From Candidatus Rifleibacteriota bacterium (lineage in GTDB: Bacteria; Muiribacteriota; Ozemobacteria; Ozemobacterales; Ozemobacteraceae), in contig JADFYG010000033.1 in assembly GCA_015233155.1 (NCBI GenBank), forward strand, positions 1,093 through 65,092: a stretch of DNA of 64,000 nucleotides. The letters run 5' to 3'. The translations under genes were made by a program, and so were the position numbers. The notes beneath the pieces were generated by a model. The model did no database searches. It was not told where the DNA came from and saw nothing but the letters and a program-made list of their open reading frames with translations. Below are positions 17,107-29,485 of the stretch, piece after piece (positions within the stretch are counted from its first letter, which is position 1; every line of letters begins with the position of its first letter).

Positions 17107-19392
17107 CTACATTTTCTTGCCCATTTTCATCATGGACATGATCATGCTGAGCGTCTCTTTTGCTGCATCAACCGGCGAATAGGCTGTATCGGAAATGCCG
17201 CTGATCACCATGGATATATCATGGTCCACCGTCTTTTTTGCCCAGACACCCGCCTTGGGGCCGGTCAGATAGACTGAATAATTTCGATGCTCGGTACCCG
17301 GCCTTTCCCCGATAACATGCACAATAATTCTGGGTTTCTCCGGATCAGACTTGCCGAACAGAATACTCCCTATTTCATACCCCGCTCTTACTCGACCTGA
17401 TTTCACCACAATGTATTTCTCGCTGGCAGTCAACCCTGATTTTGACAATTCCTCGCGAATCGTCTTTAAATAGGGCGCAAGATGCCCCTCGTCCATGATT
17501 GCGCGACCATTCAAACCGTCCGAAATGACGATCTGGACATCGGGGATCTTGTCGCCCCAAGAGTCACGAAGTTTTTCAACGGCGGCGGTGGCTTCGGAGT
17601 TGAGCTTCTCCCCGGATTCGGGATGAGCAACATAATCTTCACGATCTTTTGAGTTCGTGGAAATAAAAACGGAATTCGGGAGCGTTTTCAAAAACTCAGG
17701 AGTGAACTCCGTCCAGATGCACATCTTCGCATCGTCGTAAAGTTTCTGAACTTTTGCCGCCAGTTCCGGCTGAAGATCCCACAGTTTTTTTCCATGACCG
17801 CGAGCAATGAAGCATCCTCGGGCCTCAACGCGCTTGATAATTGCTTCGCCTTCAGCATAGATCTCTTCGCGTGAGCGTTTATCGCCTTTGGCCAGACGAT
17901 ACTGATAATAAACCCAGACAGGATCTCCGAAATGTTCTGTGTATCTGTTCTGCTGGTCTACGATCTGTATGCGCTTGAAAAAATCCTGCATGGCATCATT
18001 GACTTTGTATCCGAATTTCTCCCGCAACCGCACGTGATCCTGAAAAGCTGTGGTCAGATAGCTCAGCATCGGGTCATTTTTGGTTGGAAGGCCCATGAGA
18101 TAGGCCGGATTTGCGGGCATAATCTGATCCATGCACCAGTCCAGGTCTTCCAGGCTGATGGGCATGTGCAATGTAGAGCATATATCCAGGCCAAGGCACA
18201 ATCCATGGAGTTTTCCCATGACAATATCTTCAAGACAACAGCGGACCAATTGTTCCCGACACTTGAACACCTCGGGGCCGATAAAGCCGGCAACGTCATT
18301 GGTGTGCTGCCACATGCGTCCCTGGGGCGCCACCTTGGCTATGTCCTTCTTTAATGCCCGGGAAAAGCCATACTTTCTGGATTCATGAATGACCATGTCA
18401 AAACCGTGACCAGCGCCATTCGTGAAGTCAGCTCCCTGGCCGGTTTCAAAATACATGCCAAATGAGCCGACACGCATGGATGCATAGTTTCGCATTTTTT
18501 CAACCGTAACATCAAAGGTCTGATTGGCATCATCGCAACTGGCAAGACTTTGAAACCAAAGAGCTGTCGAGCCCGGGTATTTCTTCTCTACCTCGTTCTG
18601 CTTGTCAATATGGGATAAAACACACCAGGGAATTACATCCTGCAAACCAAAAGTAACGATAATGTCCTTGAGGGCTTCTTCTATGTTTTTCAGATCGTCA
18701 ATGGAGCCGGAAACCGGATTGGTGCCAAGAACGACGTCTCCGGTTCCATAGCACCATCCGTCGAAGACCTGCCAAACGATGTCTTCCGGGTTGTCTGTAG
18801 GGGAATTCGGCTGAAGACGGGCTCCCATATAGCCTTTGGCGCCGATTTTGCTACCGGGCAGGGGGTTGAAGATTTTCTGGCCAACCACCGTTAATTCAGA
18901 ATTATTCATGAGCTTAACCACGCAACCTATTACGTCACTATCCAGTCCCGGCATTATTTCTCTGATTTCAGTTTCAGTTTTGGTCAGCAGAAACTGTTCA
19001 AGCTCTCCAAGAGTCCAGTTTTTGATCTTTTCATAAGCGGCAGTATCAGTTGTTTCCCAAATGAATTTCTGAACTTTGTCTTCGAGCATCGGATGCTCAT
19101 GAATAACGTTGATTTTTGTGTTTGTCAGCAGCATCCAGGCATGAATGCGGCTGGCGTCATCCTGGGCGGCCACCCCTACGGTTTCATCACCTTCCTTGAA
19201 ATAGTTGCCAGCGCCGATGACCTGACGATACAAGGTCTGATCGAAGTTCCCCTTCGTTCGCTGCACGTACTGCAACACGTCTTCGCCATTCCTGGGCAGA
19301 TCAATGGCAACTGCCCATACTGAAGAAATACCCAGGAAAATCCCAAGACAAGCCATTCTGACGGAAGAAGAAAAACAAAATGAATCCCTCAC
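17107..19392 (-). CDS. eutBC: Ethanolamine ammonia-lyase, EutB-EutC fusion with N-terminal signal peptide
   Basis: EutB motifs ARLQPN, VLGTNPVS, CVLSHIDKQ, LWFQSLA, MYFETGQGADFTNGAGHG, FIGPEVFKCREQLVRCCLEDIVMGKLHG; EutC motifs VQIVISDGLNGRAI, VKSGRVRAGYEIG, VHVIGERPG, SVYLTGPKAG; GTG start at 19392 preceded by AAAGGGGG. Confidence 0.88.
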   Translation of the reverse strand: MRDSFCFSSSVRMACLGIFLGISSVWAVAIDLPRNGEDVLQYVQRTKGNFDQTLYRQVIGAGNYFKEGDETVGVAAQDDASRIHAWMLLTNTKINVIHEHPMLEDKVQKFIWETTDTAAYEKIKNWTLGELEQFLLTKTETEIREIMPGLDSDVIGCVVKLMNNSELTVVGQKIFNPLPGSKIGAKGYMGARLQPNSPTDNPEDIVWQVFDGWCYGTGDVVLGTNPVSGSIDDLKNIEEALKDIIVTFGLQDVIPWCVLSHIDKQNEVEKKYPGSTALWFQSLASCDDANQTFDVTVEKMRNYASMRVGSFGMYFETGQGADFTNGAGHGFDMVIHESRKYGFSRALKKDIAKVAPQGRMWQHTNDVAGFIGPEVFKCREQLVRCCLEDIVMGKLHGLCLGLDICSTLHMPISLEDLDWCMDQIMPANPAYLMGLPTKNDPMLSYLTTAFQDHVRLREKFGYKVNDAMQDFFKRIQIVDQQNRYTEHFGDPVWVYYQYRLAKGDKRSREEIYAEGEAIIKRVEARGCFIARGHGKKLWDLQPELAAKVQKLYDDAKMCIWTEFTPEFLKTLPNSVFISTNSKDREDYVAHPESGEKLNSEATAAVEKLRDSWGDKIPDVQIVISDGLNGRAIMDEGHLAPYLKTIREELSKSGLTASEKYIVVKSGRVRAGYEIGSILFGKSDPEKPRIIVHVIGERPGTEHRNYSVYLTGPKAGVWAKKTVDHDISMVISGISDTAYSPVDAAKETLSMIMSMMKMGKKM

Positions 19393-19593
19393 GACAGATC
19401 CCCCTTTGATCTTTAATAACCTGTTCATCTGAGTTTGAATCATGCACCGCAGGAGCATGAAACGCCGGCCCCAAAAAACAAAATTCTATATGCCTATATC
19501 CGAATAAGATCCCCATTTTTCATGCGGTCAGTATATCAGCCATTCTGAAAAAATCAATCAACTTGAAGTGCTGCCGGCAATTCTCCGTGGATT

Positions 19594-20472
19594 TTACCAG
19601 GCGGCAAGTGCGAGAAGAATACCGATTCCGAGCCAGGAATTCCAGAGTCTGAAAAACCGTCTGCCATAATTATTCAGGCTGCTGATCGTGGTTGCAAGAA
19701 AGAACATGATTATTGCGAACTGAACCCACTGAATCCAAAATCGAATCAATTCCGGAATATTTCCGCCGGCCTGGATTGCCGCAAAAAAGCAGAAAAACAT
19801 GCTAACCAAAGTGGTCAGCACCACTCCAGACTTTCCAAGATATTTATACAAATTCGATTTCGCTGATATTTCATAATCTCCGGAATATGCAATTAATAGA
19901 AGCCCAAAATGGGCAATCTGCCAGAAATAGGCAAATCCGAGCCCTATCCAGAGAGAATAACTGAAAATTTCTCCACCACCTGCAATCCATCCCATAAGGG
20001 GCGGGAGACAACCGGCTATTGCACCGAAAAAAATGGCAAAAGGAGTTCTGGATTTTAGCGGAGTGTATCCAAAATTATAGATAAGCAAGCCGACAATACC
20101 AATTAAAGTAATCACGGCTGATTGGAAAACCATGAGCAATAAAAGCCCAAAGCAAATCATGGCCAAGGCCGAATGAAAAACAAAGGCCGGACTGACTTTC
20201 CTGGCCGGCAAGGGGCGATTTCTCGTTCTGGCCATTTCCTGATCGTCAGCGCGTTCCTGAAACTGATTCAAAGCCGAACAACCTGCAGCAAGAAAAAAAA
20301 CGCCGAGAAAAATGCTGAATTCAAGAGTCATATTGCCGGGATGGGGGATGATCCTGCTTCCTGCGGCAAGAAATCCAAGAAGAGCTGAAAGCGCGATGGG
20401 CAATGAAGAAGATATTTTAATAATTATGCCGAATACATAAACAAATTTCATTGCGCCTCTGTATAAATCCAC
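19594..20472 (-). CDS. ctaB: Protoheme IX farnesyltransferase (UbiA family)
   Basis: NQFQERADDQEMARTRNRPLPARKVSP prenyltransferase motif; in the cytochrome oxidase operon. Confidence 0.9.
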   Translation of the reverse strand: MDLYRGAMKFVYVFGIIIKISSSLPIALSALLGFLAAGSRIIPHPGNMTLEFSIFLGVFFLAAGCSALNQFQERADDQEMARTRNRPLPARKVSPAFVFHSALAMICFGLLLLMVFQSAVITLIGIVGLLIYNFGYTPLKSRTPFAIFFGAIAGCLPPLMGWIAGGGEIFSYSLWIGLGFAYFWQIAHFGLLLIAYSGDYEISAKSNLYKYLGKSGVVLTTLVSMFFCFFAAIQAGGNIPELIRFWIQWVQFAIIMFFLATTISSLNNYGRRFFRLWNSWLGIGILLALAAW

Positions 20473-20478
20473 GGGCCA

Positions 20479-21390
20479 TTAAGGCAGGCTTTTTAGACAG
20501 TTGATTATAGTATTCAGATCTTCAGGGGAAATATCCATTGGTGGCGGCATAAGATCAGGAAAGCCTTTTACGATTTCCGCCTTTGGATCGAGAATCGAGC
20601 GTCTCAAATACGCTTCATCAGCAGTGAGTGATTCTTCCTGGCCACCCTTGATCACAAATGTCTTGCGGCCAAAAATACCTTTGAACGTGGGCCCTGCCTT
20701 CACGCTTCCATCAAGAGAGTGACAGCCGAGACAACCCTTGTCAAAGAGAATCTTTTGCGGTCCGGTGGCGACCACGGCTCCGGGTGTGGTGAAATCATTT
20801 ACCCACTCATCGAATTCAGTCTGAGTGGCGACGACCACTTTCGCGGACATATCCGCATGTTTGAGGCCGCAATACTCCGCGCAAAAAACTGTAAATTCCC
20901 CGGTTTTCATGGGGAGAAACCATGTATATGTCTCTCTTCCCGGAAGAGCGTCCATCTTTATGCGATAGGCCGGCATATAAAAACTATGAATGACATCAAG
21001 GGATTGAAGAATTATCTTGATAGGTTTCCCCTGCGGAACCCACAGGGTGTCAGCTATTTTTCCGTTCGGATATTCAAAATTCCATGCCCACATCCTGGCA
21101 GTGGTCTTTATCGGATAAGCGCCAACAGGCACGGTGCGGGCGGCTTTGAAACCAGTCCAGCCGGAAACAAACATTCCCGATACCAAAATAACAGGGATTA
21201 TTGTCCAGACAAACTCAAGGAGCAGATTTCCTTCTATGGGGTCGGGGTCAGGATTTCGTGTATGGTGATACCTGAAAAGAAAATAAATGCTCAGCCCGCT
21301 GATTCCAAGCAGAATAAAAGCGGAGATGCTGAAAATAATCAAAAACGTATGGTCAATTTGTTCCATTGGATTGAGAATCTGTGGAATCAT
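20479..21390 (-). CDS. coxB: Cytochrome c oxidase subunit II with C-terminal cytochrome c domain (caa3 type)
   Basis: CuA motif CAEYCGLKHADM and heme motif CLGCH. Confidence 0.94.
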   Translation of the reverse strand: MIPQILNPMEQIDHTFLIIFSISAFILLGISGLSIYFLFRYHHTRNPDPDPIEGNLLLEFVWTIIPVILVSGMFVSGWTGFKAARTVPVGAYPIKTTARMWAWNFEYPNGKIADTLWVPQGKPIKIILQSLDVIHSFYMPAYRIKMDALPGRETYTWFLPMKTGEFTVFCAEYCGLKHADMSAKVVVATQTEFDEWVNDFTTPGAVVATGPQKILFDKGCLGCHSLDGSVKAGPTFKGIFGRKTFVIKGGQEESLTADEAYLRRSILDPKAEIVKGFPDLMPPPMDISPEDLNTIINCLKSLP

Positions 21391-21396
21391 CGTTTC

Positions 21397-21675
21397 TTAC
21401 CGGTACAAAACGTCAAAAAATGTTAAGCCAATGAAAATGGCCAGGACAATCAGTGCCACCAGAAAAGCATATTTTATAAAGGACTGTTCATCCTTGAGAT
21501 GCATGAAAAAAAGAAGGACCAGACTTCCTTTTATTGTCGCAATTGTCAATGCAATCCAGATAGCCGGGTGACCGAGCTGCAGCGTTGAGCAGAATACCGT
21601 CAGCGCGGTTAAACAAAGCAGAATGATCCAGATAAATACATACGACATATAAGACTTGTTCAAATTATCCGTCAT
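21397..21675 (-). CDS. Cytochrome c oxidase subunit IV (caa3/DUF4149-like small membrane subunit)
   Basis: Small three-TM protein, ATIKGSLVLLFFMHLKDE, within the cox operon. Confidence 0.85.
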   Translation of the reverse strand: MTDNLNKSYMSYVFIWIILLCLTALTVFCSTLQLGHPAIWIALTIATIKGSLVLLFFMHLKDEQSFIKYAFLVALIVLAIFIGLTFFDVLYR

Positions 21676-22265
21676 GGGACCACCAGATAAAACAGGGGAA
21701 ATATGTAAATCCAGATCAGATCAACCAGGTGCCAGTAAAGCCCGGAATTTTCAAGGCTCACGTAATCATTGGAACTTGTTTTTCCGGAGTATACAGACCA
21801 CGTAATAATGCCGAGAACGATCGCCCCGATGATGATATGAATTGCATGAAGGCCTGTAATAGTAAAGTAGAGATTGAAAAAAACTATTTCGCCTTTCGGC
21901 TTTGCAAGCAGTGTCGGAGTGTTAGGAAAAAGCCCGTGGTGGTATTTTTCCGACCATTCAACTGATTTTACCCCGAGGAATATCCCTGCACAGGCTATTG
22001 TGGCAAGCAAAAAGGCCACGGTGTGCCGAGGTTTGTTATTTCGGATTCCGGCAACCGCAAGAACGACAAACAGGCTCGAAGTCAACAGAACGACAGTATT
22101 CAAACTTCCCATGATCGTGGAAAGTTCTTTCGAGGCACGGGAGAATTCTGCCGGATACCTATTGGAATAGACGGCATAGAGAAGGAACAAACCGCCAAAA
22201 AGCATGAGTTCCGTAAAAAGAAACAACCACATTCCAAGTCTGGAACCGACAGAATCATTCTGCAT
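21672..22265 (-). CDS. coxC: Cytochrome c oxidase subunit III
   Basis: LFLFTELMLFGGLFLLYAVY...GLHAIHIIIGAIV...YWHLVDLIWIYIFPLFYL. Confidence 0.93.
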   Translation of the reverse strand: MQNDSVGSRLGMWLFLFTELMLFGGLFLLYAVYSNRYPAEFSRASKELSTIMGSLNTVVLLTSSLFVVLAVAGIRNNKPRHTVAFLLATIACAGIFLGVKSVEWSEKYHHGLFPNTPTLLAKPKGEIVFFNLYFTITGLHAIHIIIGAIVLGIITWSVYSGKTSSNDYVSLENSGLYWHLVDLIWIYIFPLFYLVVP

Positions 22266-23883
22266 GGGGTGCTTTTATATCCTTGAAATCATAAGGTGAG
22301 CGAGTGAGAACCGGCTCTCCCTCAAAATTTTCGGCCGGAGGCGGGGAAGAAACGGTCCACTCGAGAGTTGCTCCTCCCCATGGATTGTCTCCAGCCTTTT
22401 CACCGTAACGCATACCATAAAACAGATTGATGACCATCATTATGATACCAGCGGCTAGAATCCAGGAGCCCACAGTGGAAATCACCTGCAGGTTTTGAAA
22501 CTCGGGAAGATAATCATAATAACGGCGGGGCATTCCCTGCACGCCCATAATCAACATTGTAAAGTAAAGAAGATTGAACCCTATGAACTTCAAAAACAGT
22601 GCGGCCGTTGCCCATTCATAGTTGTAAAGTCTGCCAAACATCTTGGGAAGCCAGTAGTGCAGGGCGGCAAAAAAACCGAAAATTGCTCCCCCGAACACCA
22701 CATAATGAAAATGGCCGACAACGAAATATGTGTCGTGAACATGCATGTCAGTACCCGCTGAACCTAAAATCAATCCTTGAAGGCCACCCAAAGAAAAAAG
22801 AAAGATAAAAGCGAGCGCATAAAGTAGTGGCGGGCCTAAATAAATCGAACCTTTGTACAATGTGGCCGTCCAGTTGAAAACTTTTATTGCGCTCGGAATC
22901 GCCACGACGAAAGTCAGAAACGAAAATACCATGACCGCTGTATCGCTGATTCCAGCAACAAACATATGGTGCGCCCATACCATTGAGCCGGCAGTGGCGA
23001 TCACAAAACCGCTGAAGACAATGGCGCGGTATCCGAAGGCGGGTTTTCTGGCAAAAACCGGAACGATCTCAGAGATTACGCCCATCGCGGGAAGAATCAT
23101 GATATAAACAGCCGGATGTGAATAGATCCAAAAAAGATGCTGGTACAACAGCGGATCGCCGCCCTTGGTCGGATCGAAAAGGCCTAAACCGATCACTCGC
23201 TCAAGGATGATCAAAAGCAGGGTAATAGCAAGAATCGGAGTCACTAAAACCTGAATCCAGGCAGTGAAATAGAGAGACCAGGTAAAAAGCGGCAGCTTCA
23301 TCCACGGCGTTGTTGACGGCTTCAGACGATGTACTGTTGTAATGAAATTCAGTCCGGTCAGAATTCCGGAGAAACCGAGTATGAAAACTCCGAATACCGA
23401 AAGGGTGGTGTTGGATTTCGTCATTGTGCTGAACGGGACGTAGAAGGTCCAGCCTGTATCCGGAGGGCCACCACCAGTGAAAAGGGATATGACGGCTACT
23501 CCGGCCCCGAACATGTAAAGCCACCATGAAAGAAGGTTCAGGCGTGGGAAAAAGACGTCTTTCGCTCCAAGTTGGATAGGCAATATCATATTTCCGAATA
23601 CCGCCGGAATGCTTGGAATGACGACAAGGAAAATCATTATGACCCCATGCACGGTGAATAAGGCATTATATGTTTGAGGCCCCATGATGATTCCGCCGGG
23701 AGCAATGAGTTCGAGGCGCATCAGAAGACCAAGACATAGCCCAACCAGGAAAAAAGTGGAGATGGCAACCAAATACAGGATGCCTATTCGTTTATGATCG
23801 GTGGAAAAAATCCATGACCCCAACCAGGAACGGTCAGGCTGCGGTGCCAAAAAGTTCAGATGATGATTTGATTCCATGGTCAT
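22255..23883 (-). CDS. coxA: Cytochrome c oxidase subunit I
   Basis: HHMFVAGI, HDTYFVVGHFHYV, WIYSHPAVYIMILPAMGVISE heme-copper motifs. Confidence 0.96.
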   Translation of the reverse strand: MTMESNHHLNFLAPQPDRSWLGSWIFSTDHKRIGILYLVAISTFFLVGLCLGLLMRLELIAPGGIIMGPQTYNALFTVHGVIMIFLVVIPSIPAVFGNMILPIQLGAKDVFFPRLNLLSWWLYMFGAGVAVISLFTGGGPPDTGWTFYVPFSTMTKSNTTLSVFGVFILGFSGILTGLNFITTVHRLKPSTTPWMKLPLFTWSLYFTAWIQVLVTPILAITLLLIILERVIGLGLFDPTKGGDPLLYQHLFWIYSHPAVYIMILPAMGVISEIVPVFARKPAFGYRAIVFSGFVIATAGSMVWAHHMFVAGISDTAVMVFSFLTFVVAIPSAIKVFNWTATLYKGSIYLGPPLLYALAFIFLFSLGGLQGLILGSAGTDMHVHDTYFVVGHFHYVVFGGAIFGFFAALHYWLPKMFGRLYNYEWATAALFLKFIGFNLLYFTMLIMGVQGMPRRYYDYLPEFQNLQVISTVGSWILAAGIIMMVINLFYGMRYGEKAGDNPWGGATLEWTVSSPPPAENFEGEPVLTRSPYDFKDIKAPHAE

Positions 23884-24767
23884 TTCTTCTCTTCCCGTTT
23901 CCCGGACTTAAACAGGAAAAATAAAAGCGTAACCACAAGAAGCAGGATAGCCAGCCCGGAGATTCGCATAATGTTTAATACGTACTTCTTTCCCGCCGAA
24001 TCATACGAGAAACAAAAAGTAACTACGGATTTTATGGAAAATCCCACTCTGTTTTCAGCGGCTTCCGTTAATGCCAGAGTAACATTCAGAGGCAGGAATT
24101 GTGTTCCGTGCAGATACCGGACAATTTTGCCCTCGGAAGAAACGAATATCAAAGCAGCCGGATGCACAATCGAACCGTCTACCCGCGTAAAGTAAAATCC
24201 GGCGGCCTCAGTGACTGCCTTAATATTCTCTTTTGAGCCAAAAAGGAATTTCCAGGCGGAATCCGGAAATTTTCCGCCAACAAGATTATTGAAAAATTCA
24301 TTCTTCTTTTTGCCGGCTGTGGTGGCATCATCTAACTCGTCAATGCTTATGGAAAGAACATTGTAATCCTGACCGGGTTTCAATGTGATTTTATTTATCG
24401 CCTCGGCAATGCTTCCTTGTACAAGGTTGCAGACTACGGGGCATCGATAAAAAACGAATGCTATGATCGTAGGCTTGGTGATTCGTTCTCTTAAAGTCTT
24501 TGTAGCGCCGGTTTCATCCGTAAATGAAAGATCCAGGGGAAGAATAGCTCCAAGTTTTTCATCAACTCCAGGCTGAACCGCTTTTTCGTTTACGGACGAA
24601 ACCAGTTTCGCCGTCTCCGTGGCTGTGCGGCAACACGCCGGAAGAGATGCAATCTCAGAACCCGGAGTTTGTCCTTCCACAGCACCTTGCCCGATATTTG
24701 CCATGATGAAAAGACAAATAAAAGCATTTCTTAATAATTTGAGGGACTTGCAATATTCACGAAACAT
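23880..24767 (-). CDS. SCO1/SenC copper chaperone family protein
   Basis: FYRCPVVCNLVQGS (CxxxC), C-terminal TM. Start at 24767 preferred because the longer ORF reads through a palindromic repeat. Confidence 0.88.
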   Translation of the reverse strand: MFREYCKSLKLLRNAFICLFIMANIGQGAVEGQTPGSEIASLPACCRTATETAKLVSSVNEKAVQPGVDEKLGAILPLDLSFTDETGATKTLRERITKPTIIAFVFYRCPVVCNLVQGSIAEAINKITLKPGQDYNVLSISIDELDDATTAGKKKNEFFNNLVGGKFPDSAWKFLFGSKENIKAVTEAAGFYFTRVDGSIVHPAALIFVSSEGKIVRYLHGTQFLPLNVTLALTEAAENRVGFSIKSVVTFCFSYDSAGKKYVLNIMRISGLAILLLVVTLLFFLFKSGKREEKK

Positions 24768-24773
24768 CACGCA

Positions 24774-24797
24774 AGGGCGGGTTTGAAACCCGCCCGT
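24774..24797. repeat. Palindromic intergenic repeat (agggcgggtttgaaacccgcccgt)
   Basis: Near-perfect inverted repeat, related to the element at 11535. Confidence 0.7.
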
Positions 24798-24883
24798 ACA
24801 AATGGAGGATGCGTATTCTCTCATGATTGCCATATAATTTTGCAAGTTGCTCAATTTAATAGTCATTATTCGCATCATTGATA

Positions 24884-25705
24884 CTATTGTGACTTGTTTT
24901 CAGGATCATCAAAACTTTTCCTGAAAAAGTGCAGAATCAAAGCCAATGCAAATATTATGCTGATGGCCAAAACTCCAATTTTCTCTCGTGATGACTTTTC
25001 TCTGTCTATCAGGAGATGGCTGGCTTCAGCCTTATCAAGACCGGGTTTAATTTTGGCAATCGATTCCTTGACTTTGACTATGTTCACTTCATGTATTACT
25101 GAGTGCAAGTCGTTTCTGGATGAAAAAATCCCCTTTTCAACTCCCTCAACATCGAAACCCTCCATTTTCAAAACGCTGTTTTTTTTCTGTAGAGTATCAA
25201 TGAGGTCCTCGGTTTCCTTGAAAGCATTCTTCAATATCCTGGAGCCCTCATAAGAGTGGCATTTTGAACAAAGCTGTTCATTTATTATTTCGATAGACGC
25301 CTTCTTGGCGGCATGACTCCCGTGGCAATCAATGCAGACAGGACCACTGGCCAAATCGGCTTTCCCATGGGCGCTGGCAAGATAATTCTCAAGAACTCCA
25401 ACGTGGCACTTGCCGCAAAATTTCGGAATATCAGCCCGCTTGGGAGCCCCCAGAAAGCCACGGGAGGGACTCATTGCATTTACGGCATCACTTGGGTCGC
25501 CACCATGGCAAGAATTACAAAATACTCCATTTTCGGCATGAATACTTGTCTTCCATAAATTGACAGGCGCAAGTGCCCGCCCCGTTTGTGTGCTGTGGCA
25601 ATCGATACACACAATTGCACAAATGGAATCAGTAAAAAATACGGTCATGAAAAGAACGGCCAGAATCAGATGTATCAGACGCCTGCTTCTTTGGTATTTT
25701 TTCAC
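24884..25705 (-). CDS. Membrane-anchored multiheme cytochrome c (five CxxCH)
   Basis: CIDCH, CNSCH, CGKCH, CIDCH, CSKCH; N-terminal signal and C-terminal TM; GTG start at 25705 overlaps the cyt b stop (GTGA). Confidence 0.9.
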   Translation of the reverse strand: MKKYQRSRRLIHLILAVLFMTVFFTDSICAIVCIDCHSTQTGRALAPVNLWKTSIHAENGVFCNSCHGGDPSDAVNAMSPSRGFLGAPKRADIPKFCGKCHVGVLENYLASAHGKADLASGPVCIDCHGSHAAKKASIEIINEQLCSKCHSYEGSRILKNAFKETEDLIDTLQKKNSVLKMEGFDVEGVEKGIFSSRNDLHSVIHEVNIVKVKESIAKIKPGLDKAEASHLLIDREKSSREKIGVLAISIIFALALILHFFRKSFDDPENKSQ

Positions 25706-26802
25706 GAAAAGTGTCCCCAAATCATCAGACCAATGAACGTGAAAATACCAAGCATGACGCAGGTCAGAAAAAGCGGCCGTTTCAGGAAGTTGCGCTTGGG
25801 CCATATGTCGATGAATGGAAGGGCGGCAAGAAAAGTCATGGCAATTCCCTGTACAATAAGCCCAATAAACTCGTTGGGGAAAATCTTCAATACCTGATAA
25901 TTTGGAAGAAAATACCATTCAGGCTTGATATGAGCAGGAGTTTCAAATGGATTGGCAGGAAAGAAAGCCTCTGCCGGAAAAAAAATATTCGGGACAAAGA
26001 AGACGATGGCGAAGAAGAAAATGGCATAAATACAATTGGCTACAAGATCCTGCACTAAAAAGTGAGGGAAGAATGGTATTCCGTCTGGATGTTTTTCATA
26101 CTCATACTGTTCACCTTTCCAATGCTCAACAGGACCGTCATACGATGGCGGGGTGGAAACTCCTGTGCGCTGAAGAAGAAACAGATGTATCCCAATCAAG
26201 CCGGCAATTCCTGCCGGCAATACAATGACATGAAGAACAAAAAAACGGCCCAAAGTGGGAGCCCCAACCAATTTTCCTCCGCGAACAAATTCGAGGATAT
26301 ACTCACCGATAAATGGAACGCTGCCGGCTCCACTCGTGGCAACAGTTGTTGCCCAAAATGAAAGCTGGCTCCATGGCAAAAGATAGCCGGTCAGGCAGAT
26401 TCCAAAAACCATGTTCAGCAGGCCAAACCCGGAAAGCCAGTTGAACTCCCTGGGAGCCTTGTAGCTTCCCATGAAAATAACTGAAATCATGTGAATCAAA
26501 AGGAAAAGAACCATCATGTTGGCACCCACCGCATGGCATGTGCGTATCAGCCATCCAAAGGGGACCTGGTTCATAATGAAGGTAATGCTCTTGAATGCCG
26601 TTTCTATGCTCGGTGAGTAATAAACCAGCAGAAGGATTCCCGTTAAAACCTGAACCCCAAAGATAAGCAACAGGATGCTTCCCATGGAGTACCAGATGTT
26701 GATGTTGCGAGGCAAAAGATAGCCGGTGAGATACTTCGCCGTAAGATCATTCAGACCGATTCGGCGGTCGATCCAATCATAGATGAATGTGACTGGATTC
26801 AT
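25702..26802 (-). CDS. Cytochrome b (bc1/b6f-type, full-length)
   Basis: RTCHAVGANMMVLFLLIHM, GYLLPWSQLSFWATTV, VLPAGIAGLIGIHLFLLQRTGVS, ETPAHIKPEWYFLPNYQVLK. Confidence 0.95.
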   Translation of the reverse strand: MNPVTFIYDWIDRRIGLNDLTAKYLTGYLLPRNINIWYSMGSILLLIFGVQVLTGILLLVYYSPSIETAFKSITFIMNQVPFGWLIRTCHAVGANMMVLFLLIHMISVIFMGSYKAPREFNWLSGFGLLNMVFGICLTGYLLPWSQLSFWATTVATSGAGSVPFIGEYILEFVRGGKLVGAPTLGRFFVLHVIVLPAGIAGLIGIHLFLLQRTGVSTPPSYDGPVEHWKGEQYEYEKHPDGIPFFPHFLVQDLVANCIYAIFFFAIVFFVPNIFFPAEAFFPANPFETPAHIKPEWYFLPNYQVLKIFPNEFIGLIVQGIAMTFLAALPFIDIWPKRNFLKRPLFLTCVMLGIFTFIGLMIWGHFS

Positions 26803-26805
26803 ATG

Positions 26806-27216
26806 CTATCCGACATTGACGGATCCATCTTTAACAACGAATGGAAGTTGTTCGAGCGGCTTCGGGGGAGGCCCGCCAAGAACCGTTCCGTCCGGGGAAA
26901 ATCTTCCTCCGTGGCAAGGACAAAGGAATTCCTCCTTTTCTTTTTCCCACTTCACGATACAGCCCAGGTGAGTACAAACCGCTGAAAGCAGGCTCAGATT
27001 ACCGTTTTTACGCTTGATGAGTACGGCCGCTCTTCCCTGAAACTCAAAAAATTTAGCTTCACCTTCGGGAAGGTTTTCCAAAGAAATGGCAACCTTTGCT
27101 CCGTGGCTATCAACAGAAAGAGGAGACAAAAAACGAAAAATAGGATAAACGGTTCCTGCTCCTATTAGGGTAAGCAGCCCGCCAGAACAAACCCCCAAAA
27201 AATCCCTGCGTCTCAT
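26806..27216 (-). CDS. Rieske 2Fe-2S protein
   Basis: CTHLGCIVKW...FLCPCHGGRFSPDG, N-terminal TAT/TM-like MRRRDFLGV. Confidence 0.95.
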   Translation of the reverse strand: MRRRDFLGVCSGGLLTLIGAGTVYPIFRFLSPLSVDSHGAKVAISLENLPEGEAKFFEFQGRAAVLIKRKNGNLSLLSAVCTHLGCIVKWEKEKEEFLCPCHGGRFSPDGTVLGGPPPKPLEQLPFVVKDGSVNVG

Positions 27217-28678: not shown

Positions 28679-29485
28679 TCAATCAGCGTGGTGGCCGTCA
28701 AACAGAACGCTCCGGACAAGGGGGGCCGAAACTGTGAGGAAAGGACGGCGCGAAGGATTTAAACTCTTCAACAACGCCGACCGTGGATGGTTTCCCAGTC
28801 GGAATTTGGAATCCGGAGAGCACAGCGAAACACCTGCCTCGCCCTCCGTTCGAACCATGGTGCGAAGAATTCGGCCTTCGTGCCAGGTATATGTAGGATA
28901 TGGATTTGCATCTACCCGCGGAGGAAGAATTTTTACCCGAAGCGAGAGAACTTCCTGCTCTTGTTCACTGACGCTGCAAATCACCCACCCGTCAAGTTTT
29001 CGGAAAGTAATGGTGGCCTGACACTTAGGGTAACCCCACACTTCCCGGCCAAACGCTTCGGCCTGGAGAGTAGTAACCGGGAGATACTGAACGAACCACC
29101 CAAAATCAGAAAACTTGCCCGGAAACAGAACAGGCAGGAGCGGCAGATTGATACGAGGGCGCAATCTTACTGGAAACATTACGCCAAACTCCTGGTACCG
29201 GGGCAGGCCTTCAACCTCTTGATAATCCATGGCTGCCATACCGACCAAGGTTCTGCCTGATATCGCTGGAACTGGTACAAGGAGCGGGCTGGGCAGCAGT
29301 TGTTTCACTGAGGCCGAGTCCACGGTGAAACAGGCGAAGATTGAACTCCAACGTCTGAAAAAGACCGGTACCTTCACGAGAAGGTCGTTGTTCAGGCGTC
29401 GCTCAGTGACTTCGATACCGGAAAAAAAACGTTTTCCGCCTGTGGCGAACGCCTTCGCAGCTTCCGGTGCGAGATTCCAGTCCAT
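28679..29485 (-). CDS. Acetoacetate decarboxylase family protein
   Basis: YLPVTTLQAEAFGREVWGYPKCQATI and preceding ADC-like region. Confidence 0.75.
   Translation of the reverse strand: MDWNLAPEAAKAFATGGKRFFSGIEVTERRLNNDLLVKVPVFFRRWSSIFACFTVDSASVKQLLPSPLLVPVPAISGRTLVGMAAMDYQEVEGLPRYQEFGVMFPVRLRPRINLPLLPVLFPGKFSDFGWFVQYLPVTTLQAEAFGREVWGYPKCQATITFRKLDGWVICSVSEQEQEVLSLRVKILPPRVDANPYPTYTWHEGRILRTMVRTEGEAGVSLCSPDSKFRLGNHPRSALLKSLNPSRRPFLTVSAPLVRSVLFDGHHAD

Follow-up and report, generated by a model that had tools for sequence, protein, structure and literature searches.

A fused EutB-EutC ethanolamine ammonia-lyase with a predicted export signal in a Candidatus Rifleibacteriota genome

Organization of the eutBC gene

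The window analysed here, a 64,000-nucleotide stretch of a Candidatus Rifleibacteriota contig, contains on its reverse strand a gene (17107..19392, stop included) in which the two subunits of ethanolamine ammonia-lyase, EutB and EutC, are fused in one chain. Translation from GTG 19392 to the stop at 17107 gives a 761-residue precursor, and an in-frame ATG at 19458 would yield 783 residues. The frame is open throughout, as a single stretch of 792 codons without stops. A Shine-Dalgarno-like sequence (AAAGGGGG; 19400..19407, reverse strand) can be read 7 nt 5' of the GTG. The protein begins with MRDSFCFSSSVRMACLGIFLGISSVWAVAIDLP, and its residues 1-29 (19306..19392, reverse strand) are assigned to a Sec-type signal peptide from their n/h/c anatomy, a fixed sequence rule described below and the N-termini of relatives.

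The large subunit, EutB, occupies residues 55-486 (17935..19230, reverse strand), as judged by Pfam (PF06751, 4.2e-141), residue mapping, Foldseek and NCBIfam NF011649, whose cut-off of 554 bits is passed with 619. EutC follows at residues 542-758 (17119..17769, reverse strand) with its DGL, GRV and GERPG motifs, and is supported by Pfam (PF05985, 3.9e-32, 112 bits against a cut-off of 25.8), motif conservation and Foldseek; it stays under the NCBIfam EutC equivalog cut-off (80.6 versus 230 bits). The gap between the two Pfam matches defines a linker (residues 487-541; 17770..17934, reverse strand) that is largely helical and confident in the AlphaFold model. This model, computed for the mature chain with 33 relatives, has a pLDDT of 91.7 and a pTM of 0.88. 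Its best Foldseek match in the PDB is E. coli EutB (3abo_A, TM 0.88 by target) and that of its second domain is E. coli EutC (3abo_B, TM 0.69), so that an EutB fold followed by an EutC fold is predicted for the mature part.

The residues that bind ethanolamine in E. coli EutB, which we take to be R160, Q162, N193, E287 and D362, align with R192, Q194, N225, E316 and D403 of the window protein, and all five are invariant in the 64 aligned members of its clade. The window protein contains the segments RLQPN, GTNPV and FETGQG, which align with the corresponding segments of E. coli EutB. In EutC, the motif residues G168, L169, R206, V207, G227-G231 and Y241 (E. coli numbering) are kept. A degraded EutB or pseudogene is ruled out by the open frame, the retained residues and the confident model. 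Divergence from the unfused proteins is nevertheless considerable. The window-type protein departs from unfused EutB at 43 of the 108 positions at which the latter is conserved, which could possibly alter its substrate range or kinetics, although this is inferred from sequence alone. In the fused protein the N-terminal part of EutC has been replaced. For the cobalamin site at the EutB/EutC interface the sequence gives a mixed picture: the three EutC motifs and Y241 are retained, while the chain departs from unfused EutC at 21 of its 35 conserved positions, mostly away from these motifs. Four cysteines (C157, C385, C386 and C420, precursor numbering) are conserved in the clade and absent from unfused EutB; that they form disulfides or a metal site is one possible, purely sequence-based inference.

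A first-pass annotation, made from the window without database searches, had described one ORF at 17107-19392 with a GTG start at 19392, encoding EutB followed by EutC with its active-site motifs kept. These claims all hold: the coordinates match, the profile search that it proposed places both Pfam domains in one chain, and the three motifs align to E. coli EutB. Loss of substrate-binding residues, which it had named as grounds for refutation, is not seen in any of the 64 aligned members.

Relatives and phylogeny

Relatives of the fused protein occur in Desulfobacterota, rhizobia, Bacteroidota, Acidobacteriota, Planctomycetota and Riflebacteria. Plasmid-borne relatives fall into two clearly separate groups: copies in Sinorhizobium and Pararhizobium share 60-62% identity with it over nearly the whole chain, and all ordinary EutB about 30%. 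In a tree of 113 EutB regions, from which the signal part was left out, all 64 members of the window clade fall on one branch (SH-aLRT 99, length 1.36). Putatively exported EutB and unfused EutB were never found in one genome among those surveyed.

Two further lineages also have EutB and EutC in one chain without a signal. Clade B (L047, L107-L112) keeps all five substrate residues and is the sister of the window clade on the tree, the root of which is uncertain. In clade C (L046, L103, L104, L106, L145), the equivalent of D362 is A or S. D362 should bind the substrate amino group, and its replacement raises the possibility, again inferred, that clade C acts on another substrate. EutA is encoded directly upstream of the clade C eutBC in the genomes that were checked (G057, G101, G105 and G568).

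Within the window clade, the closest sequences to the window protein are from Desulfobacterales (L007/L008, about 71% identity), and the other Riflebacteria copy (L002) is only 55-58% identical to it. The window protein is thus nearer to another phylum's sequences than to its own, which suggests horizontal transfer, a likely explanation that is inferred from these comparisons. EutB of any kind was found in only 2 of 40 genomes of the phylum, both times as the putatively exported fused type, and the window eutBC is the sole EutB of its genome.

Export signals across the clade

A signal was scored by a fixed rule that requires a positive n-region, an 11-residue uncharged hydrophobic window and small residues at -3/-1. 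This rule is passed by 60 of 66 members of the window clade and by none of 51 other EutB proteins (0/7 in clade B, 0/5 in clade C and 0/39 unfused), which rules out a chance hydrophobic start. Among the six failures, L021 and L102 are truncated where their contigs end. Inspection by eye reveals a signal in two more, of which L084 fails as an artefact of the rule and L105 because no usable start codon was found. The remaining two, L013 and L147/L025, lack a signal. By the rule together with reading by eye, signals of differing sequence are therefore present in 62 of 64 evaluable relatives. Many of the loci are close relatives, and the clade counts are not independent.

Signals of two kinds occur. 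Sec-type N-termini were read directly in the window protein, in L007 (MKNFNKYFALCFVFVLALSLGTSVSA|VTI), L008, L009, L010 and L015, and in most Desulfuromonadia. Twin-arginine N-termini are found in L004, L006, L012 (MKRRDFLKLCAAG), L014, L016, L017, L018, L020, L022, L023, L024 and L105, with motifs such as SRRNFL, KRRDFL and TRRDLL, and lipoboxes are present in L014, L017 and L121. The window signal has no RR and hence none of the twin-arginine motifs that about 12 relatives carry; TatC is encoded in its genome. Relatives' signals end in ..SVSA|VTIKEV, ..PASA|VSIPEV and ..FAGA|VTIHDA. The homologous cut in the window protein is therefore VWA|VAIDLP, after A27, two residues before the alternative AVA|IDLP (after A29). 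Both cuts satisfy the -3/-1 rule.

On the tree, a single change suffices to explain whether a protein is exported or not, and four are needed for the kind of signal (Sec, Tat or none, labelled by eye). This difference indicates that signals were swapped while export was kept. Replacement of Sec by Tat or the reverse with export retained is what selection for location predicts, and such selection seems likely, although it too is inferred from sequence alone. The signal-less L013 is a basal branch of the clade.

The first-pass annotation had proposed a textbook n/h/c signal peptide with cleavage before IDLP, and had concluded that an exported B12-dependent lyase would be unexpected, with a membrane-tethered or repurposed enzyme as the alternative. 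The signal is upheld by the rule and by its conservation in homologues, with the cut refined to A27; the suggested survey of homologues finds the fusion and signal recurring, and the homologues include a hydrophobic segment rather than starting after it. Its Sec-only picture must be amended, since many relatives carry Tat signals instead. Membrane tethering fits the lipobox subset of relatives and not the window protein. Comparative data support the exported lyase itself, with periplasmic location and activity remaining inferences.

Genomic context

Upstream of eutBC on the same strand lie genes for a Rieske protein, cytochrome b, multihaem cytochrome c, SCO1, COX1/3/4/2 and CtaB (19594..27213, reverse strand), with 201 bp separating ctaB from eutBC downstream. 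The run appears to be a bc-oxidase respiratory cluster of this Riflebacteria genome. The placement of eutBC downstream of a cytochrome oxidase operon, as first annotated, is correct and is peculiar to the window genome rather than family-wide. A functional link between the two is unsupported, as relatives are without these neighbours. No mobile genes were seen near the window eutBC. Elsewhere in the window, an acetoacetate decarboxylase-like protein (PF06314) is encoded at 28679-29485, between a GGDEF gene and an adenylate/guanylate cyclase gene.

A different arrangement is conserved in about 20 Desulfuromonadia loci, where a TorF-like porin and a solute-binding protein are encoded upstream of eutBC and a multi-helix membrane protein follows it. 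In these loci eutBC is usually no more than 250 bp from its nearest neighbour, a BtuFCD-like transporter comes next in 13-14 of them, and a MoxR ATPase is also present in some. Apart from the ATPases, these operon partners are envelope proteins, a setting that favours the export reading. The window eutBC stands outside this B12/porin operon, and there is consequently no local link to B12. No cobalamin riboswitch upstream of eutBC was found in the window, and among 24 relatives such riboswitches occur only in L079 and L084, downstream of eutBC.

Several neighbours of the relatives merit description in their own right. The multi-helix membrane protein (L115:7725-8504 and 21 similar genes) is conserved next to putatively exported eutBC and has no match in Pfam or NCBIfam. 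Its AlphaFold model (pLDDT 87.4) gives weak MFS-like half matches, the best with an E of 0.043. The solute-binding protein (L115:3164-4261 and relatives) is of the polyamine periplasmic type (SBP_bac_6), and no cognate permease or ATPase for it was seen in the stretch around the L115 locus. In Sinorhizobium meliloti pSymA (L004) and Rhizobium giardinii (L023), phosphoketolase and zinc alcohol dehydrogenase genes lie near eutBC, and their products could possibly handle acetaldehyde.

EutA and microcompartment genes

EutA has a described role, and bacterial microcompartments (BMCs), which not all eut loci encode, have been proposed to shield the cytoplasm from acetaldehyde (PMC5821096). The absence of both from view in the window, noted at the outset, extends to the whole genome insofar as a 6.3 Mb draft that is 84% complete can show: it contains no match to BMC shell genes and no convincing match to EutA. 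One weak match of 44 positions to the EutA model is probably FtsA-like; the model also matches in the B. subtilis and Caulobacter controls.

Across the clade, 47 of 51 genomes are without BMC genes and 4 have any BMC gene. EutA is likewise found in 4 of 51, in each case beside a different, signal-less fused EutB of clade C and never beside the putatively exported eutBC. Genomes with unfused EutB contain both EutA and BMC genes in 17 cases out of 29 and neither in the other 12, so that this absence is not specific to the window clade.

A model for a periplasmic lyase

The reading that we favour is that the product of the window gene is an ethanolamine ammonia-lyase that consists of a single chain, depends on adenosylcobalamin (AdoCbl) and is exported, with the periplasm replacing the microcompartment. 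We consider this likely, with a probability of roughly 0.66. The fusion, the conserved catalytic residues, the predicted fold, the family-wide signals of two kinds and the lack of a paired EutA are shown by computation. It is inferred that the protein is actually exported, that it is loaded with AdoCbl outside the cytoplasm and that it acts on ethanolamine; the reason for its export is likewise an inference.

According to this model, the Sec signal would carry the chain across the inner membrane and then be cleaved, and the fused protein would fold in the periplasm, with 1:1 subunits guaranteed by the fusion. AdoCbl entering by cobamide uptake may be bound there by the enzyme; Sec members would acquire it in the periplasm and Tat members before export. 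Outside the cytoplasm, ethanolamine would be split to acetaldehyde and ammonia; both products, being small, could pass through the inner membrane and undergo oxidation and assimilation in the cell interior. In this way the periplasm would stand in for the Eut microcompartment, because acetaldehyde would not be produced in the cytoplasm. The ATP-requiring EutA would go unused, and inactivated cofactor may be exchanged or the enzyme replaced.

The weakest step, itself an inference, is the arrival of AdoCbl in the periplasm together with survival of the enzyme's inactivation without ATP. AdoCbl is made in the cytoplasm, and to our knowledge no AdoCbl radical enzyme operates outside it. Sec exports unfolded chains, and the cofactor must therefore be found in the periplasm, which counts against the model. 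The two members without a signal (L013 and L025/L147) also speak against export.

A bolder reading extends the proposal to the clade as a whole: across several phyla, an AdoCbl radical enzyme would be run outside the cytoplasm, exported unfolded by Sec or folded by Tat and served by a periplasmic AdoCbl pool, with the periplasm replacing the microcompartment. We lean only slightly towards this version. If it is true, the clade would provide the first known case of an AdoCbl-dependent enzyme at work outside the cytoplasm. A cytoplasmic location is assumed for such enzymes on the grounds that the cofactor is synthesised in that compartment and is light-sensitive, and that ATP-driven reactivases replace its damaged form; it would follow that loading and continued function of an AdoCbl enzyme are possible without ATP. 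Alongside microcompartments, the clade would also represent a second natural solution to the toxicity of acetaldehyde, and it would account for ethanolamine use by sediment bacteria that lack Eut shells or EutA. The model makes clear predictions for culturable hosts, namely the Pelobacter/Syntrophotalea relatives and Sinorhizobium.

Alternative explanations

The protein might be exported and yet repurposed, either as a periplasmic cobamide holder or as a lyase for another small amino alcohol, without splitting ethanolamine. Several points favour this view: BtuFCD-like transporters adjoin eutBC in many relatives, numerous clade-specific substitutions affect positions that are invariable in unfused EutB, EutC has had its N-terminal part replaced, and choline has been suggested as the substrate of one of two Pelobacter copies (PMC3543383). 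It is nonetheless unlikely, since a mere binder would not need the five substrate residues that are invariant in 64 of 64 members, and growth of Pelobacter carbinolicus on ethanolamine has been reported with the fused genes alone named for it (PMC3543383).

Two other explanations dispense with export. If the hydrophobic segment were an uncleaved anchor, the catalytic part could remain on the cytoplasmic face of the membrane. The segment is indeed fixed, no cleavage experiment exists and lipobox members would be tethered, but positive charges before the hydrophobic stretch favour the orientation that sends the C-terminus outward, small -3/-1 residues occur at the homologous place in relatives, and the Tat motifs of a dozen relatives serve translocation. 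We regard an anchor as very unlikely. An ordinary cytosolic enzyme, whose true start lies downstream of a fortuitously read hydrophobic segment, could be argued from the GTG start and from the two relatives that begin without a signal. The comparative data contradict it and all but exclude it: signals of differing sequence recur in 62 of 64 evaluable relatives, the Shine-Dalgarno sequence suits GTG 19392, and the stretch from the signal to the conserved GEDVL segment offers no ATG, GTG or TTG. The GEDVL segment has a GTG and a TTG of its own, and both fall inside the homologous core. The preferred reading remains a periplasmic AdoCbl-dependent lyase.

Comparison with known systems

The E. coli EutB and EutC (PDB 3ABO) and Listeria EutB (PDB 2QEZ) share with the window protein the same two domains, the predicted fold and the five substrate residues. 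In contrast, they are separate cytosolic or microcompartment proteins with no signal peptide and about 30% identity, and they work with the EutA reactivase and often a BMC shell. Clades B and C share the single EutB-EutC chain and lack the export signal.

The closest described system is that of Pelobacter carbinolicus, whose 2012 genome report lists two fused genes, EutBC1 and EutBC2 (Pcar_0491 and Pcar_0467), and no eutA (PMC3543383). Growth on ethanolamine is reported for the organism, only the fused genes were named for this, and one copy was suggested as possibly acting on choline. Neighbouring solute-binding, multi-membrane and cobalamin-transport genes were called uptake proteins, and the passages concerned are silent on any signal peptide or secretion of the lyase. 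The likeness to the present family thus extends to the single chain, the missing eutA and the solute-binding, multi-transmembrane and cobalamin transporter neighbours. Two-copy loci such as L079 show the Pelobacter layout and carry Sec signals, although a strain match between these loci and the published genes is unconfirmed. The window gene differs in belonging to another phylum and another neighbourhood.

The fusion as such is consequently not new, being known in P. carbinolicus (PMC3543383) and present also in the signal-less clades B and C. We found no report of an exported ethanolamine ammonia-lyase, and no localisation or activity data for any clade member, in the open-access literature searched, which does not cover subscription journals. 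Export across a multi-phylum clade, as inferred here, thus appears to be so far unreported. A precedent for the export of a cobamide enzyme is provided by the respiratory reductive dehalogenases (PceA/RdhA), which are Tat-exported to the outer face of the inner membrane (PMC10624902). Their fold and chemistry are unrelated, employing Co(I) and iron-sulphur clusters with no adenosyl radical.
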